From Acidaminobacter sp. (lineage in GTDB: Bacteria; Bacillota_A; Clostridia; Peptostreptococcales; Acidaminobacteraceae), in the NCBI GenBank assembly GCA_009881125.1, contig WXFH01000331.1:1-8926 (forward strand): a DNA stretch of 8,926 bases, written 5' to 3'. The notes beneath the pieces are model-generated. The model was not told where the DNA came from. It ran no database searches and saw only the letters and a program-made list of their open reading frames with translations. Positions 310-7,992 of the stretch are shown one piece after another (the stretch's first letter is position 1; each line of letters begins with the position of its first letter). The position numbers and the translations under genes are program-made.

Positions 310-1347
310 ATGAGCGAATATGTCTATGATATAAAAAACAAAAAAAATAGTTATAAAAAGTATGCATATATATCCGTTACCTATTTATCGTCAATATTTA
401 TTGCCTACCTTGTATTTACTTTTGGAGGGACAAAGACCGTTTTTCCAAGTTTTATGTTCATTCCTATCGTTTTTTTATCGACATTCCATAGTAGGAATTT
501 TGGCGCTTTAATTGCTCTGTTTTGCGGTATTCTTCTCGGACCCTTAATGCCACTAAGTACAAGTGACATGATCATGCAAGAAACATTTAATTGGGCAGTA
601 AGAATTGTAATTTATGTTTTCGTCGCGATTGTAGTGGGACATTACTCTGACAAATATAAGAATTTCATGAATCAAATGATTGAGAAAGAAAAAGAAATCG
701 TTGAGTCAAGACTAGCAACGATTTATTCACTTGTTAAACTTGCTGAAATGCGTGATGATGATACCGGTGCTCACATAGTTAGGGTTTCAAAGTTTAGTAG
801 ATTGATTGCAGAAAAGATGAAATCAAATGAAAAGTACAAAGAATATTTAAGTGATACAAATATTGATGACTTGGCTAAAGCAGCCCCGCTTCATGATATT
901 GGTAAAGTAGGTATACCTGATTATATTTTAAGTAAACCAGGAAAGCTTTCTGATGAAGAGTTTGATATAATGAAAAAACATACAACCATTGGCGCAAGTA
1001 CTCTTAATGAAGTCCGCAAGAAATTTCCTGATAACAATTTTATTATTCTAGGCGCTAAAATAGCGTTAACGCATCATGAAAAGTGGGATGGTACAGGGTA
1101 TCCCAACGGACTCGTGGGTGAAGAAATACCACTTTCGGGGAGAATTATGGCCATTGCAGATGTGTATGATGCTCTTAGGTCAAAACGTGCCTATAAGCCC
1201 CCCTATTCACATATGGAAACCATTGAAATAATTAGAAATGATTCAGGAAAACATTTTGATCCTGAGATCGTTGAGGTTTTTCTGAAAAACGAAGCAGAAT
1301 TTGAATTTATTTACAAATATACTACCTATCAAGATTTCGAATACTAA
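310..1347 (+). CDS. Membrane-anchored HD-GYP domain cyclic-di-GMP phosphodiesterase
   Basis: The protein has 345 residues. Four hydrophobic segments (about residues 20-38, 43-60, 64-82, 94-112) place the N-terminus in the membrane. A short helical linker (about 113-145) leads to a cytoplasmic HD-GYP domain. Its motifs are complete: DDDTGAHIVR near 149-158, HD at 195-196 within PLHDIGKVGIP, H224, the HH pair at 255-256, GYP at 263-265, ADVYDAL at 283-289 and KHFDP at 314-318. The family hydrolyses c-di-GMP to pGpG or GMP at a di- or tri-metal centre, so the enzyme is predicted active. AGAGGAG (298-304) lies 5 nt before the ATG. No known sensor domain is recognised; the membrane segments may sense a ligand or simply anchor the protein. 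It is first in a five-gene run that also encodes a diguanylate cyclase, so opposing enzymes share an operon. Confidence 0.92.
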   Translation: MSEYVYDIKNKKNSYKKYAYISVTYLSSIFIAYLVFTFGGTKTVFPSFMFIPIVFLSTFHSRNFGALIALFCGILLGPLMPLSTSDMIMQETFNWAVRIVIYVFVAIVVGHYSDKYKNFMNQMIEKEKEIVESRLATIYSLVKLAEMRDDDTGAHIVRVSKFSRLIAEKMKSNEKYKEYLSDTNIDDLAKAAPLHDIGKVGIPDYILSKPGKLSDEEFDIMKKHTTIGASTLNEVRKKFPDNNFIILGAKIALTHHEKWDGTGYPNGLVGEEIPLSGRIMAIADVYDALRSKRAYKPPYSHMETIEIIRNDSGKHFDPEIVEVFLKNEAEFEFIYKYTTYQDFEY

Positions 1348-1416
1348 CAAATATCAGATCATTATTAATGACATCATAAGAACTTCATTTTTTGATCCAG
1401 CGAGAGGATGAAAATA

Positions 1417-1893
1417 TTGTCAAATATACAATTTCTCAAAATTGAATTACAAAGTGATTTGATGAGTCGTTTTAACATGGCGTTAGCCTTAAAAAACGAA
1501 AATCCAAATACTGTATTGAATGAACTTATTTCGCAATACATAGTATTTGCCTTCAAAAGTGAAGCATCAAAAATAAAGTGCAAAACGGATCACTCTTATC
1601 AAAATTTAAATTCAAACTGCTTTCATTTTAAGTCAAAAAAGAATAATATTGGTCAGACTGATCAAATTAGAGCCTATATCACCGAAATCCTGAATAAAGC
1701 GAAGGAAGAAGGTTTTGAGAGTTTTGACGTGCAATCTGGTGATATACATAGAGAAATGGGACTACTAAATCGAATTCCATCTGTATGTGCTGCGATGGAG
1801 TCTCTACATAATTATTCAGATTATGAAGTGATATATGATACACAAAGCAAAAGAAGTTCTACTCGAGTGTTTAGATATCAGTTAAACAAATAA
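1417..1893 (+). CDS. Unrecognised small protein, ribbon-helix-helix-like N-terminus and possible winged-helix C-terminus
   Basis: I do not recognise this as a named family. From the TTG start it has 158 residues. Residues about 5-45 (strand FLKIEL, a helix, then NTVLNELISQYI) have the spacing of a ribbon-helix-helix DNA-binding fold. A polar linker (about 50-80) follows. The C-terminal part (about 82-158) has a helix, the segment SGDIHREMG, then PSVCAAM, and ends in two probable beta strands, which fits a winged-helix-like domain. The start is ambiguous: an ATG at 1408 directly abuts GAGAGG (1402-1407) and is too close to use it, whereas TTG at 1417 has 9-nt spacing. It sits between the HD-GYP and B12-sensor genes and is probably co-transcribed. 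Regulation of the operon or of c-di-GMP targets is a guess. The domain reading is by eye. Confidence 0.75.
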   Translation: MSNIQFLKIELQSDLMSRFNMALALKNENPNTVLNELISQYIVFAFKSEASKIKCKTDHSYQNLNSNCFHFKSKKNNIGQTDQIRAYITEILNKAKEEGFESFDVQSGDIHREMGLLNRIPSVCAAMESLHNYSDYEVIYDTQSKRSSTRVFRYQLNK

Positions 1894-1919
1894 ATGTAAT
1901 CGCGATAGGAGCAAAGACT

Positions 1920-2990
1920 ATGAGTTTATTAATAAATTATAATGACCCAAAGTTTATTGAAATTACAAAAATTATATTTGAAAGTCATTTTTTGAAAGAT
2001 CCAAAGCTGCATTCAGAACTTGATGATCGCAGAAAAAAATTAATGTATGATGATGTTGTCTATAATTTAAGCTTTTTGTTCACAGCTGTTTATTTTAGGG
2101 ATCAGAAGATTTTTACAGACTATGCAGTTTGGATATTCAAACTATTATGTAATATCATGAAAGATTTCGATCGAACCAGGATCATGCAAATGATGGTAGA
2201 TCATTACGCCATCATGTCAGACTCAATTAGCAATCAACTTATTGGCCTATTAAGCGACCAGGAAATTCATCTATCAACTGAGTATTTAGAAAGTGCAATT
2301 AATGCTACTAAAAATGCTGTCTTATATGTTCCGGAATCAACTGATTTTGATAAAGGCAGCTATGCACAATTAAGAGATAACTATCTTGAATCACTACTGC
2401 TCAACAATACCCGAGATGCGTATGCGATCATTAACGAGGCATATAAATCAGGTGTTCCAATTATTGATATCTATGAAGAGGTTCTAACTTATGTCATGCA
2501 CGAAATTGGTGAATTATGGCATAAAAACATCATTTCTGTTGATAAGGAGCATTTTGCTACTTCAGTTACTCAAACAGTAATGGGTCAGTTTTATGACGAT
2601 ATTTTTTCACAACCGCGTAAACAAAAAACGTTAGTTGCTTGCGCAATTGGGAGTGAACTACATGAAATTGGAATCCGTATGTTATCTGACATGTTTGAAT
2701 TTCACGGATGGGATTCTTATTATCTTGGTGCAGCGTTGCCTACGGAGTCAATTCTAAAATCAATTGATGAACATAAACCCAACTTGATTGCCTTATCCGT
2801 TACAATGCCTCCATATCTTAAGGTTTGTGAGACAATAGTAATGGAAATTAGAAACAAGTATCCTGAAGTCAAAATTGCAGTGGGGGGTCAAGCATTTCTT
2901 AGAACTGACTCACTTTGGGAAAAAATGAATATTGATTTTTACTCCCCATCAGCAATAGAATTAGTAAAGTGGACAGAAAAGAATATATAG
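1920..2990 (+). CDS. Cobalamin-binding sensor protein, CarH/MetH-type B12 domain with unassigned helical N-terminus
   Basis: The protein has 356 residues. Residues about 150-225 form the four-helix cap found before B12 domains and carry W200, E210 and H211, exactly the W-x9-EH signature of CarH-type adenosylcobalamin photoreceptors. Residues about 235-350 form the Rossmann-like B12 domain: ELHEIG (246-251), with H248 as the expected lower cobalt ligand, then YLGAALP (268-274), SVTMP (293-297) and VGGQAF (321-326). The usual DxHxxG motif has Glu in place of Asp. The first ~140 residues are helical and unassigned, and there is no MerR-type DNA-binding domain. It therefore probably signals through protein contacts rather than on DNA. 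AGGAG (1907-1911) lies 8 nt before the ATG. It lies just upstream of a GGDEF gene, which suggests control of c-di-GMP synthesis by light or B12. A corrinoid methyltransferase partner protein is an alternative, but no methyltransferase gene is present. Confidence 0.88.
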   Translation: MSLLINYNDPKFIEITKIIFESHFLKDPKLHSELDDRRKKLMYDDVVYNLSFLFTAVYFRDQKIFTDYAVWIFKLLCNIMKDFDRTRIMQMMVDHYAIMSDSISNQLIGLLSDQEIHLSTEYLESAINATKNAVLYVPESTDFDKGSYAQLRDNYLESLLLNNTRDAYAIINEAYKSGVPIIDIYEEVLTYVMHEIGELWHKNIISVDKEHFATSVTQTVMGQFYDDIFSQPRKQKTLVACAIGSELHEIGIRMLSDMFEFHGWDSYYLGAALPTESILKSIDEHKPNLIALSVTMPPYLKVCETIVMEIRNKYPEVKIAVGGQAFLRTDSLWEKMNIDFYSPSAIELVKWTEKNI

Positions 2991-3023
2991 GTGTCGATTC
3001 CACACTACTTTAAGGAGAAACTC

Positions 3024-4061
3024 ATGAATAATCAGCTTCACTCATTTCTGATACAATGCGATAGGAAGTTGAACATAGTAACCCGATATTGGAATCGCCC
3101 ACTACATTCAATTTCTCCTTATCAAAAAAATCTATTAAACCTTTTTGAAGAGAAGTTTGAACATGAAATCGTAGCTGCTGTAGCTGAGTCGTTTAATAAT
3201 AAAGATATTGTCTTTAGCCAAAACACATGGACTTTTAAAAATCCCCGGATTGAGCTGTCTGTGTGTCTTTTAGTATTAGACAATAATCTTCTCGTTCACG
3301 GCATTGAATCATTTTGCAGTGATACTGATCAGAAGAAAGAGATTTTGAATGTGATTTTATTTGATTTTATGAATGTGATCAAAGAGTCAAATAAACTGAT
3401 TCTATCAGAAAATGAACAAACGGTTAGGAATCAGTTTGAACAAATCCAAAAGTTGAACAACGAACTTTTAAATGTTCAGCGGGATCTTAGAAAAGCGAAT
3501 ATTCAAATGAATCAACTCAATAAGGAATTAAACAACAGATTAGTCAAAGATGCTCTGACGGGATTAGTAAGCAGGTATCAATATCGACAAGAAATTGAGC
3601 ATCTTATTAAAGTTGATCCTTATCAATTAGGTGTATTTTTATTTATAGATATTGATGATTTCAAGGTAATAAATGATACTCACGGCCACAGAACTGGTGA
3701 TCTATATTTAATCTCTTTTGCAGAAAGATTGAAAACACTTAAATTCGAATCATTTATTGCAATGCGGATCTCCGGTGATGAGTTTGGCGTTTATATTCAT
3801 GGCTACAGACAAATTTCACAAAATGAGATAGCAAGAATATGGAATGAATTTAAATCTTCTGTTCTTAACAAGCCAATTGAAATTGAGAATTCTGTTTTAG
3901 ACTTAGGCTGCAGTGTCGGCATGGCCATTTACGGTATGGATACTACTGAAGTGTATGACTTAATTGAATATGCTGACTTTGCAATGTATCAGGCCAAAAA
4001 CAACGGTAAAAATACTTTTTCAGTCTTTGATATAGATGAATACAGATTAAGAAAAAAGTAG
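3024..4061 (+). CDS. GGDEF domain diguanylate cyclase
   Basis: The protein makes c-di-GMP from two GTP. From ATG 3024 it has 345 residues. Residues about 5-120 form an unassigned, possibly PAS-like input domain. Residues about 125-173 are heptad-rich and probably a coiled coil. The GGDEF domain starts at DALTGL (176-181), with metal and GTP residues in DIDDFKVIND (209-218), the signature as SGDEF (250-254), and YADFAMYQAKNNGKN (316-330). Ser for the first Gly occurs in active cyclases. The RxxD inhibitory site expected five residues upstream is absent (FESF there), so product inhibition at that site is unlikely. The start rests on AAGGAG (3012-3017) 6 nt before the ATG; an in-frame GTG at 2991 directly after the previous stop has no such site. 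There are no membrane segments. The tight link to the B12-sensor gene implies that the two act together. Confidence 0.9.
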   Translation: MNNQLHSFLIQCDRKLNIVTRYWNRPLHSISPYQKNLLNLFEEKFEHEIVAAVAESFNNKDIVFSQNTWTFKNPRIELSVCLLVLDNNLLVHGIESFCSDTDQKKEILNVILFDFMNVIKESNKLILSENEQTVRNQFEQIQKLNNELLNVQRDLRKANIQMNQLNKELNNRLVKDALTGLVSRYQYRQEIEHLIKVDPYQLGVFLFIDIDDFKVINDTHGHRTGDLYLISFAERLKTLKFESFIAMRISGDEFGVYIHGYRQISQNEIARIWNEFKSSVLNKPIEIENSVLDLGCSVGMAIYGMDTTEVYDLIEYADFAMYQAKNNGKNTFSVFDIDEYRLRKK

Positions 4062-4091
4062 CAGCTATCGTTTAAGTAAAGGATGAAATCA

Positions 4092-4625
4092 GTGAAAGAA
4101 TTAAGTGGAGTTCGGTCAATCTCTTATTCAGCAATTTCTATTTGTTTATGTATGGCATCTCTTCTCTTATTCAGAGGATCTGTTAGTCTTATCTCAGCAG
4201 TGACCATTCCATTAATAATAGCCACATTGTCAATTAGGTTGCACCTGCGTTATGATCTCCTAATTGCAGCTGGTCTATCTATAATAACGGGATTGTTTTT
4301 TACAACGCAGCTCATCTTTGTCATAACCTACTTATTAATGGGACTTTTAATCCAATTGATTTTTCGTTTAAAGACATCTAATGTGATTTCACTCTGGATG
4401 GTGCGTTTATTATATGTAATGTCTACTGGGATTCTGCTCTATCTGGGAATTCGACTGACTGAAGCGATATTTTATATTCCGCTTCACGAAATGATGCTCA
4501 GAATGTCAAATGGCAACGTGGGCGTATATAGTTTAATAATCCTTGCGGAAGCACTATTCGTGAGCGTCATACATTTTGTTTTCATACAGGTTATTAGAAA
4601 ACGGATCCCACTTCAAACTTATTAA
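4092..4625 (+). CDS. Unrecognised multi-pass membrane protein
   Basis: The protein has 177 residues from GTG 4092 and is highly hydrophobic, with about six predicted membrane segments (roughly residues 11-27, 31-49, 55-70, 72-92, 103-121, 146-168) and a short basic tail. No catalytic or binding motif is visible. It loosely resembles small integral membrane proteins such as DUF2232/MreD-like or ECF substrate-binding types, but I cannot assign it. An ATG at 4083 overlaps the AAAGGA ribosome site (4078-4083), so GTG 4092 with 8-nt spacing is preferred; the alternative adds only three residues. It begins about 30 nt after the GGDEF stop and is probably the last gene of the signalling operon. It could be a membrane partner, transporter or output of the c-di-GMP module. 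Confidence 0.75.
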   Translation: MKELSGVRSISYSAISICLCMASLLLFRGSVSLISAVTIPLIIATLSIRLHLRYDLLIAAGLSIITGLFFTTQLIFVITYLLMGLLIQLIFRLKTSNVISLWMVRLLYVMSTGILLYLGIRLTEAIFYIPLHEMMLRMSNGNVGVYSLIILAEALFVSVIHFVFIQVIRKRIPLQTY

Positions 4626-4723: not shown

Positions 4724-4880
4724 TCGTTCAATTTACATTATATACAATTTCATCATCTTCACGGTTTCTACCTGGCGTTTTCGATAGCGACATAAAAGAT
4801 AATGAAGTTGCTTTTGTTAGAGCAATGTCATTGCAGACTTCTCAACTTTATTTAACGTTAGACTTGCGAAAAACGTGCAA
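4682..4880 (-). repeat. Dispersed intergenic element, copy 2 (long form)
   Basis: It shares three blocks with copy 3 in the same order: ATTTCATCATCTTCAC (4747-4762, identical to 7868-7883), AATGAAGTTG (4801-4810, identical to 7913-7922) and the core starting at 4842. The second block and the core are separated by exactly the same distance (41 nt between starts) in both copies. The core (4843-4878) also matches copy 1. Read on the minus strand the order is core, middle blocks, hairpin, T-rich tract. One minus-strand frame shows peptide-like similarity to copy 3, interrupted by stops at a similar place, so a decayed coding origin is possible. Confidence 0.7.
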
Positions 4881-4964: not shown

Positions 4965-4970
4965 ATTCAT

Positions 4971-5065
4971 GCATTCTGAGGGAGTAACTACCTTTACGGA
5001 CCTGCTATCGTCATTACAGTGAAAACTCGGTAGCGGTAATACATTTATGTATTCTGTGAGACTCA
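4971..5065 (+). promoter_or_regulatory. yybP-ykoY family (Mn2+) riboswitch aptamer
   Basis: The leader carries the two conserved strands of this class: GGAGTA (4981-4986) near the 5' end and GTGAGA (5056-5061) near the 3' end. They are flanked by a P1 pairing of TGAG (4977-4980) with CTCA (5062-5065). Between them CTACC (4988-4992) can pair with GGTAG (5029-5033), and 5038-5053 forms a 6-bp hairpin. The 3' strand of P1 is also the 5' strand of the terminator at 5058-5096, so ligand-stabilised P1 would block termination. In the family Mn2+ turns on exporters, including P-type ATPases, which fits the gene that follows. The motif match is by eye, without a covariance model. Confidence 0.85.
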
Positions 5066-5096
5066 AGAGCCAAAGGGCTTTTTGGGTCTCTTTTTT
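5058..5096 (+). terminator. Riboswitch expression-platform terminator
   Basis: Positions 5058-5071 pair with 5076-5090 (14 bp with two wobbles and one bulge) around the loop AAAG, followed by TTTTTTA (5091-5097). It sits 25 nt before the ATPase start codon and shares CTCA (5062-5065) with aptamer helix P1, giving mutually exclusive folds. Confidence 0.9.
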
Positions 5097-5120
5097 ATTA
5101 CAAAAAATGGAGGAATCAGT

Positions 5121-7840: not shown

Positions 7841-7992
7841 ACGAAGATTTGTGATAAATTCTAAATCATTTCATCATCTTCACCATTTTTACCTGGTGAC
7901 AGCTGTGAAGTAAATGAAGTTGATTTTGCAGATATCATGTGATTTGAAATATGTCAAAATATTTGCACGTTAGTGTTCCGAAGAAGGTACAG
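7808..7992 (-). repeat. Dispersed intergenic element, copy 3 (long form)
   Basis: It holds the same blocks as copy 2: 7868-7883 and 7913-7922 identical, and the core at 7954-7992 more diverged but alignable (ATTTG.ACGTT and GTTCC shared with copy 1). The order and orientation match the other copies, with the hairpin and T-rich tract at the minus-strand 3' end. It fills almost all of the space between the two convergent genes, so it would form the 3' untranslated region of the ZIP mRNA. Confidence 0.65.

Follow-up and report, generated by a model that had tools for sequence, protein, structure and literature searches.

A globin-B12 sensor and the diguanylate cyclase encoded next to it in Acidaminobacter sp. 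as a candidate two-protein photocobilin-type system

We analyzed an 8,926-nucleotide stretch of DNA (here called the window; contig WXFH01000331.1 of assembly GCA_009881125.1) from Acidaminobacter sp., in which a gene for a cobalamin (B12) sensor with an N-terminal globin is directly followed by a gene for a diguanylate cyclase of the GGDEF type. We consider it probable, at roughly 60%, that these two genes form the core of a two-protein ("split") photocobilin-type sensory system controlling cyclic di-GMP (c-di-GMP) in trans. Domain content, conservation of cofactor residues, predicted folds, a near-exclusive genomic pairing, swapping of outputs, and natural fusions, all observed by computation, carry this reading.

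The sensor gene (positions 1920 to 2990, plus strand) encodes 356 amino acids and reads as a relative of the photocobilins, which are photoreceptors using B12 and biliverdin, with the domain order reversed. Pfam recognizes B12-binding_2 (E = 7e-13) and B12-binding (E = 5e-18), and the four-helix cap and Rossmann B12 module span positions 2373 to 2939 (plus strand). The preceding domain (1920 to 2360, plus strand) has no Pfam match and is predicted to fold as a globin of the bilin type ("photoglobin"): a separate structure model of residues 1 to 147 is a five-helix bilin-type globin whose top matches are 8j2w/8j2x, smURFP, and phycobiliproteins, and by sequence this globin matches photocobilins at E values of 0.003 to 0.008. 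For the whole sensor, photocobilins are the best matches in both structure and sequence. The B12 module carries the CarH-type residues for AdoCbl (adenosylcobalamin), with W200 (2517 to 2519), H201, and E210-H211 (2547 to 2552), as well as the lower-ligand histidine, H248 (2661 to 2663). In the globin, D45 (2052 to 2054) and W71 (2130 to 2132) align with the bilin-contact residues Asp270 and Trp296 of SasPcob, whose numbering offset of 6 was fixed via Trp61, Glu71-His72, and His108; AbPcob has a histidine in the aligned bilin-contact column, in agreement with PMC10979010. The sensor may bind AdoCbl and biliverdin and may respond to light.

The initial annotation had described this protein as a CarH-like B12 sensor with W-x9-EH and a cobalt-ligand histidine and without a DNA-binding domain. 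The motif and the histidine are in place, and no helix-turn-helix (HTH) match was found in Pfam and NCBIfam searches. The protein goes beyond a CarH core, and the term "CarH-like" is imprecise, photocobilins being closer and the N-terminal globin having been missed. Membership in CarH was rejected: the MerR-type DNA-binding domain of CarH was not found, a globin occupies the N terminus instead, and the CarH NCBIfam model scores 47.7 bits on the sensor against a cut-off of 400.

To place the pair among its relatives, we used a comparison set of 80 loci, the closest being L001 to L043 and those further out L044 to L080. In all 43 of the closest loci, the gene after the B12 gene encodes a signaling protein, with a spacing of -53 to +47 nucleotides (nt). 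By regular expressions, 31 of these partners have an intact [SAG]GDEF motif, 6 are GGDEF-EAL proteins, to which L031 with its cut frame is added, and a single one (L035) is a GAF-SpoIIE protein with a PP2C output; the partners in L006, L010, L021, and L037 are short or contig-cut and match the window GGDEF protein by BLAST. Among 448 other co-directional pairs of open reading frames (ORFs) from the 80 loci, with at most 100 nt between them, none has a GGDEF gene downstream and one has a kinase gene, and the order of B12 gene and signaling gene is therefore far beyond chance. Pfam confirms GGDEF in 33/33 aligned partners (the window and 32 loci). Two stretches of viral contigs matched a pattern; neither encodes a relative, and a viral origin was rejected.

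The partners of the 37 loci further out are more varied, with kinases in 13 loci and GGDEF proteins in 10 (L070 and L071 share an assembly). Of the other 14, one has a LuxR protein (L067), and the rest have small or unassigned proteins, stretches that are masked or cut, or no ORF close by. Pfam, run on 17 further partners, gave no output family for L063, L066, L068, L073, L077, and L078. On a B12 tree, the output changes 10 times, compared with a mean of 26.6 in shuffles, and the starred branches force a minimum of three changes for histidine kinase and four for diguanylate cyclase, on a quick tree in which 27 of 70 inner branches are open and the long branches of L073, L059, and L067 leave the deep forks unsure. 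Six clostridial loci (L029, L030, L031, L040, L042, and L043) have a partner with a degenerate GGDEF domain, plus EAL where the frame is whole, and together with L034 they make up one starred clade of this tree. For these partners, read with Pfam in L030 and from translations or motifs in the other loci, the sign of the output on c-di-GMP may be reversed, perhaps to hydrolysis.

The GGDEF protein of the window (3024 to 4061, plus strand; Pfam GGDEF, E = 1.3e-31) has 345 amino acids counted from ATG 3024, which is a likelier start than the also open GTG 2991 and has AAGGAG at 3012 to 3017. Its active-site motif is SGDEF (3771 to 3785), the first glycine being replaced by serine or alanine in the 33 aligned partners, and D209, D211, and N217-D218, the metal and GTP residues, are invariant among them, from which diguanylate cyclase activity is predicted. 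The translation has no RxxD inhibitory site at the position five residues ahead of SGDEF, and such a site is not required for cyclase activity. The region before the cyclase domain, which we call the receiver (3024 to 3545, plus strand), consists of an N-terminal domain of about 115 amino acids without a Pfam match, followed by a coiled coil (about 3435 to 3539, plus strand) that reads F-E-x-IQKLNNEL-x2-VQRDL-x2-AN-x-QMN-x-LN. Across the 33 aligned partners, the domain is variable and the coil strongly conserved, with N145, R153, and N166 invariant, and most close partners have the N-terminal domain and the LNNEL..QR.L coil in common. The receiver extends to other outputs: in hhalign comparisons, the receiver of GGDEF partners matches the input region of kinase partners (7 rows) with 99.1% probability (E = 1.2e-18, 164 columns) and that of GGDEF-EAL partners (5 rows) with 98.6% probability (E = 1.1e-15, 151 columns). 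Its N-terminal part is a domain of unknown family; it looks PAS-like by eye, but PAS was not among the 25 families shown (of 40) for the 33 partners and was rejected, and a 20-row receiver profile had no match in the PDB up to an E value of 1.

The receiver profile found 28 places in 26 close host genomes. In 26 of them, the gene immediately before is a full-length B12 gene, and in one it is a second B12 gene that lacks the globin; the remaining place is a GGDEF gene truncated at a contig edge, with no upstream sequence to read. The globin-less case (L081, 1126 to 3127) is a second pair within one genome, in which a B12 protein of 218 amino acids precedes a receiver protein of 429 amino acids, read as a histidine kinase. 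Since 15 of the 26 genomes gave a row to the profile and hence match it by construction, the other 11 and the lack of extra matches are the telling part: 17 of the genomes hold 356 GGDEF matches at E values of 1e-15 or below, yet no further receiver matches. Two natural fusions were also found. P0123 has the order (partial globin)-B12-coil-HisKA-HATPase-REC, with the coil at residues 380 to 412 (24.7 bits), and P0124 the order B12-coil-SpoIIE, with the coil at residues 241 to 287 (13.5 bits; E values for both coils refer to a search of five sequences). In both, the coil comes after the B12 domain, at the point on which a partner in trans would need to act. Another protein, P0125, has its B12 domain behind a GntR-type HTH (PF00392), which is another type of output.

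We propose that the globin-B12 protein would bind AdoCbl in the base-off form on H248, capped by W200 and E210-H211, and that its globin domain may hold a bilin. Breakage of the Co-C bond by light, or loss or exchange of AdoCbl, would rearrange the four-helix cap and thereby alter how the protein dimerizes, and the changed sensor would act on the partner encoded by the next gene through its N-terminal receiver region and conserved coil. By analogy with AbDPcob, the sensor could then set the register of the coil, the geometry of the GGDEF dimer, and thereby c-di-GMP synthesis. AbDPcob is a photocobilin fused to a diguanylate cyclase; in the dark, AdoCbl lowers its activity below that of the apoprotein, and in light its turnover rises more than 10-fold (PMC10979010). 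For the window pair, we infer AdoCbl binding, the light trigger, contact between sensor and partner, and the direction of the effect.

Several observations weigh against this proposal. The light-responsive B12 signature of SignatureFinder, GxxW/EH/GxxH/GxxxP (PMC11796333), is found in the sensor for GxxW, EH, and GxxxP (G197-ELW, E210-H211, and G270-AALP) and not for GxxH at the lower ligand, where the sensor has GSELH, that is, G-x3-H. Because GxxH is missed by one residue, the family may have escaped the light-signature screen described there. Of the 42 readable loci among the closest, 41 share GSELH with the window (L005 has GNELH, also G-x3-H), a conservation partly selected for by the two peptide patterns (VGSELHE.. 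and ..GxLW) with which homologues were collected; E210, H211, H201, D45, and W71 lie outside both patterns. Not every partner conforms, since L034 begins with a receiver (REC) domain rather than the coil receiver, the three kinase partners from Paenibacillus start at the coil, without the N-terminal domain, and L060, a relative of 39% identity listed further down, has no partner within 300 nt and a B12 reading that looks damaged. The receiver search is of limited reach, GGDEF-EAL partners being detected at E values of just 1e-6 to 1e-8, so that remote receivers elsewhere could be missed; the fusion search, run with a joined query, was confined in its scoring to the 7992 candidates with the most words in common, and the coil match in P0124 is weak. 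Cofactor supply is a further difficulty. The PF01126 heme oxygenase was found in none of the 26 close host genomes (other heme-degrading families, except HutW, were not searched) and in 6 of 24 distant ones, and HutW does not exceed its cut-off in any of the 26. Sub-threshold HutW matches are probably general radical-SAM relatives, because all 14 control genomes have them too, and anaerobic heme degradation through HutW was rejected as a bilin source. With neither PF01126 nor HutW above cut-off in these genomes, the supply of biliverdin is unexplained. Adenosyltransferases (two families together) occur in 20 of the 26 genomes and neither in 6, and many of the 26 are metagenome-assembled genomes (MAGs), which makes absences weak. 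Finally, members from Blautia, C. citroniae, and C. asparagiforme keep the full cap motif; we take these to be gut species, a poor fit with a light signal, and in members from such species the output is a degenerate GGDEF domain together with EAL. Most of the hosts are presumably anaerobes, judging from their names and general knowledge. Light would be one candidate for the natural signal of the sensor.

The same pair could respond to the level or form of AdoCbl, or to redox damage, rather than to light, with the apo, AdoCbl-bound, and hydroxo-bound sensor setting the cyclase differently. We regard this as rather unlikely, though it gains from the full motif in members from presumed gut species, from the missing PF01126 heme oxygenase, and from the six genomes, several of them MAGs, in which neither adenosyltransferase family tested was found. 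The residues W, EH, and upper His, by contrast, are those of CarH photochemistry, and a sensor of AdoCbl level alone would have no need of D45 and W71 in the bilin site. Also in favor of a response to AdoCbl itself, its binding alone lowers the cyclase activity of AbDPcob relative to the apoprotein (PMC10979010).

Somewhat less likely still is the view of the initial annotation, in which five genes form one circuit and the B12 state sets c-di-GMP synthesis and hydrolysis oppositely. The five closely spaced plus-strand frames that it listed are all present, with gaps of 60, 26, 33, and 21 nt that give the cluster an operon-like look and with no terminator-like site between the genes; spacing suggests that they may be co-transcribed. 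Scans found 20 promoter-like sites (23.7 in shuffles) and 1 terminator-like site (2.1 in shuffles), both below the shuffle means. The first gene (310 to 1347, plus strand) encodes, as had been claimed, a complete HD-GYP phosphodiesterase, of 345 amino acids with a hydrophobic N-terminal part, a Pfam HD_5 match (E = 8.2e-32), and the motifs HDIGK ... HHE-x2-DGTGYP. The GGDEF cyclase was likewise correctly identified, and its link to the B12 sensor stood up to the check that the initial annotation had itself proposed, conservation of the neighborhood in relatives. The opposing phosphodiesterase did not. HD-GYP matches occur in 6 of the 80 loci, and only in L003 is the gene directly upstream on the same strand, 78 nt from the B12 gene, where it encodes a MEDS-HD-GYP protein (8621 to 9922), MEDS being a different input domain from that of the window protein. 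In L009, L024, and L032 it lies upstream on the opposite strand, in L033 some 4 kb upstream, and in L076 some 5 kb downstream; at least 2 kb of upstream sequence is covered in 37 of the 43 closest loci.

The second gene of the cluster (1408 to 1893, plus strand) encodes a protein of 161 amino acids for which tblastn (E ≤ 1e-3) finds no homologue in any of the 80 loci and which has no Pfam or NCBIfam match above cut-off. The frame is as initially annotated; the putative DNA-binding role goes back solely to a sub-threshold DUF7557 match (E = 0.054), which does no more than suggest it. The HD-GYP gene and this small ORF thus stand outside the conserved unit, and the HD-GYP protein, like the transmembrane protein encoded last, is probably a co-expressed accessory in the lineage of the window. 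That small membrane protein (4083 to 4625, plus strand; GTG 4093 is a possible alternative start) has no Pfam family. In 11 of the 80 loci, a homologue immediately follows the GGDEF gene, so that some members of the family have it as the third gene of their unit. The family, with multiple transmembrane segments, has an invariant Gln76 and Thr126 in hydrophobic stretches; one of nine members matches DUF2232 weakly (E = 0.0015), and that name was not adopted.

It is very unlikely that sensor and cyclase have a transcript and a purpose in common without touching each other. A two-gene order by itself is no proof of contact, but the receiver occurs almost only behind B12 genes, the output is swapped while the receiver stays, and the fusions put a coil of the receiver type directly behind the B12 domain. 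A role of the B12 protein as a methyl-transfer corrinoid protein, suggested by shared PF02607 and PF02310, by database names of the type "methanogenic corrinoid protein MtbC1," and by weak NCBIfam matches, is hardly credible and was rejected, given scores of 51.6 against a cut-off of 215.3 (pyl_corrinoid) and 44.1 against 350 (MtbC), the adjoining signaling partner, the CarH cap residues, the globin domain, and a structure nearer to photocobilins.

If the split photocobilin-type reading holds, the genome itself names a partner, the next gene, for a large clade of standalone photocobilins, whose role has been called "less clear" (PMC10979010). Trans control by a B12 photoreceptor would become directly testable with two proteins, and the receiver would be a module that could be moved between outputs. 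One may then ask why a light-type B12 site has been retained in bacteria of gut and sediment and which molecule occupies their bilin pocket. We offer more tentatively, as a possibility somewhat short of even odds, a wider reading in which standalone globin-B12 sensors use a universal trans plug, the receiver with its N-terminal domain and LNNEL..QR.L coil, that serves cyclases, phosphodiesterases, kinases, or PP2C proteins as outputs. Where anaerobes have no heme oxygenase, the pocket of the globin, its bilin residues intact, would take another tetrapyrrole or have become a new ligand site, allowing B12-gated control of second messengers where oxygen is nearly absent.

Outside the cluster, a P-type cation ATPase gene follows on the 3' side and then a ZIP transporter gene on the minus strand. 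The leader of the ATPase gene (4970 to 5104, plus strand) folds better than 200/200 shuffles (z = -3.24), and its end is a terminator-like hairpin followed by a T run. To the eye it resembles a leader of the Mn/yybP-ykoY type; Rfam returned no such match there, only a far sub-threshold SurA match to the opposite strand and a snoRNA match attributable to chance. Over the whole window, Rfam gave nothing at the gathering threshold and just two snoRNA-type matches (E = 1.5 and 3.5). Two intergenic segments, 4734 to 4775 and 4796 to 4816, resemble 7855 to 7896 (81%) and 7908 to 7928 (86%) with their order kept; one set follows the sensor cluster and the other the ATPase gene, and they are perhaps a repeated intergenic element.

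Among known systems, the photocobilins SasPcob and AbDPcob (8J2W, 8J2X, and 8J2Y; PMC10979010) are closest, sharing a CarH-type B12 module with its Trp and Glu-His cap, a bilin-type globin, equivalents of Asp270 and Trp296 of SasPcob, and, in AbDPcob, a diguanylate cyclase as output. Unlike them, the sensor here is globin-first, is a protein separate from the cyclase, has an extra residue in the lower-ligand loop, and belongs to a family in whose 26 searched genomes no PF01126 heme oxygenase was found. Its upper histidine is as in CarH, whereas SasPcob has glutamine and AbDPcob tyrosine there (PMC11796333). Photocobilins with bound AdoCbl are reported to have a 540/560-nm spectrum in the dark, which gives way to a 356-nm peak under light of 530 nm (PMC11796333). 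BBAG-2 (PMC10151467) likewise couples a globin to a B12-binding protein in a predicted signaling context, but as separate genes beside bilin-synthesis genes rather than as one protein; PF01126 was not found in the 26 genomes here, in which bilin reductases were not searched. CarH, LitR, and CtMerR (5C8A, 3WHP, and 8JBS) have the same W-x9-EH cap, lower His ligand, and B12 fold, whereas the sensor has no DNA-binding domain, carries an N-terminal globin, and has an enzyme in trans as its output. In AerR and AppA SCHIC (7TE2 and 4HEH), a standalone or sensor-type B12 fold likewise acts on a partner protein. The photoglobin-B12 proteins of Schneider et al. 2022 reportedly also couple a globin to a B12-binding protein, with a predicted signaling context. 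Photocobilins, their fusion to a diguanylate cyclase, and predicted members with the B12 domain at either end are already known, as are effects in vitro in trans, where isolated photocobilins act on AbDGC and the presence of bound biliverdin decides the direction of the effect (PMC10979010). The accessible part of PMC8612252 does not mention B12, and by title and abstract, a partial literature survey that did not cover Schneider et al. 2022 met no description of a split globin-B12 and receiver unit. Relative to the literature covered, and bearing in mind that Schneider et al. 2022 may include such a unit, what may be new is the dedicated pairing of a standalone globin-B12 sensor with its own receiver.

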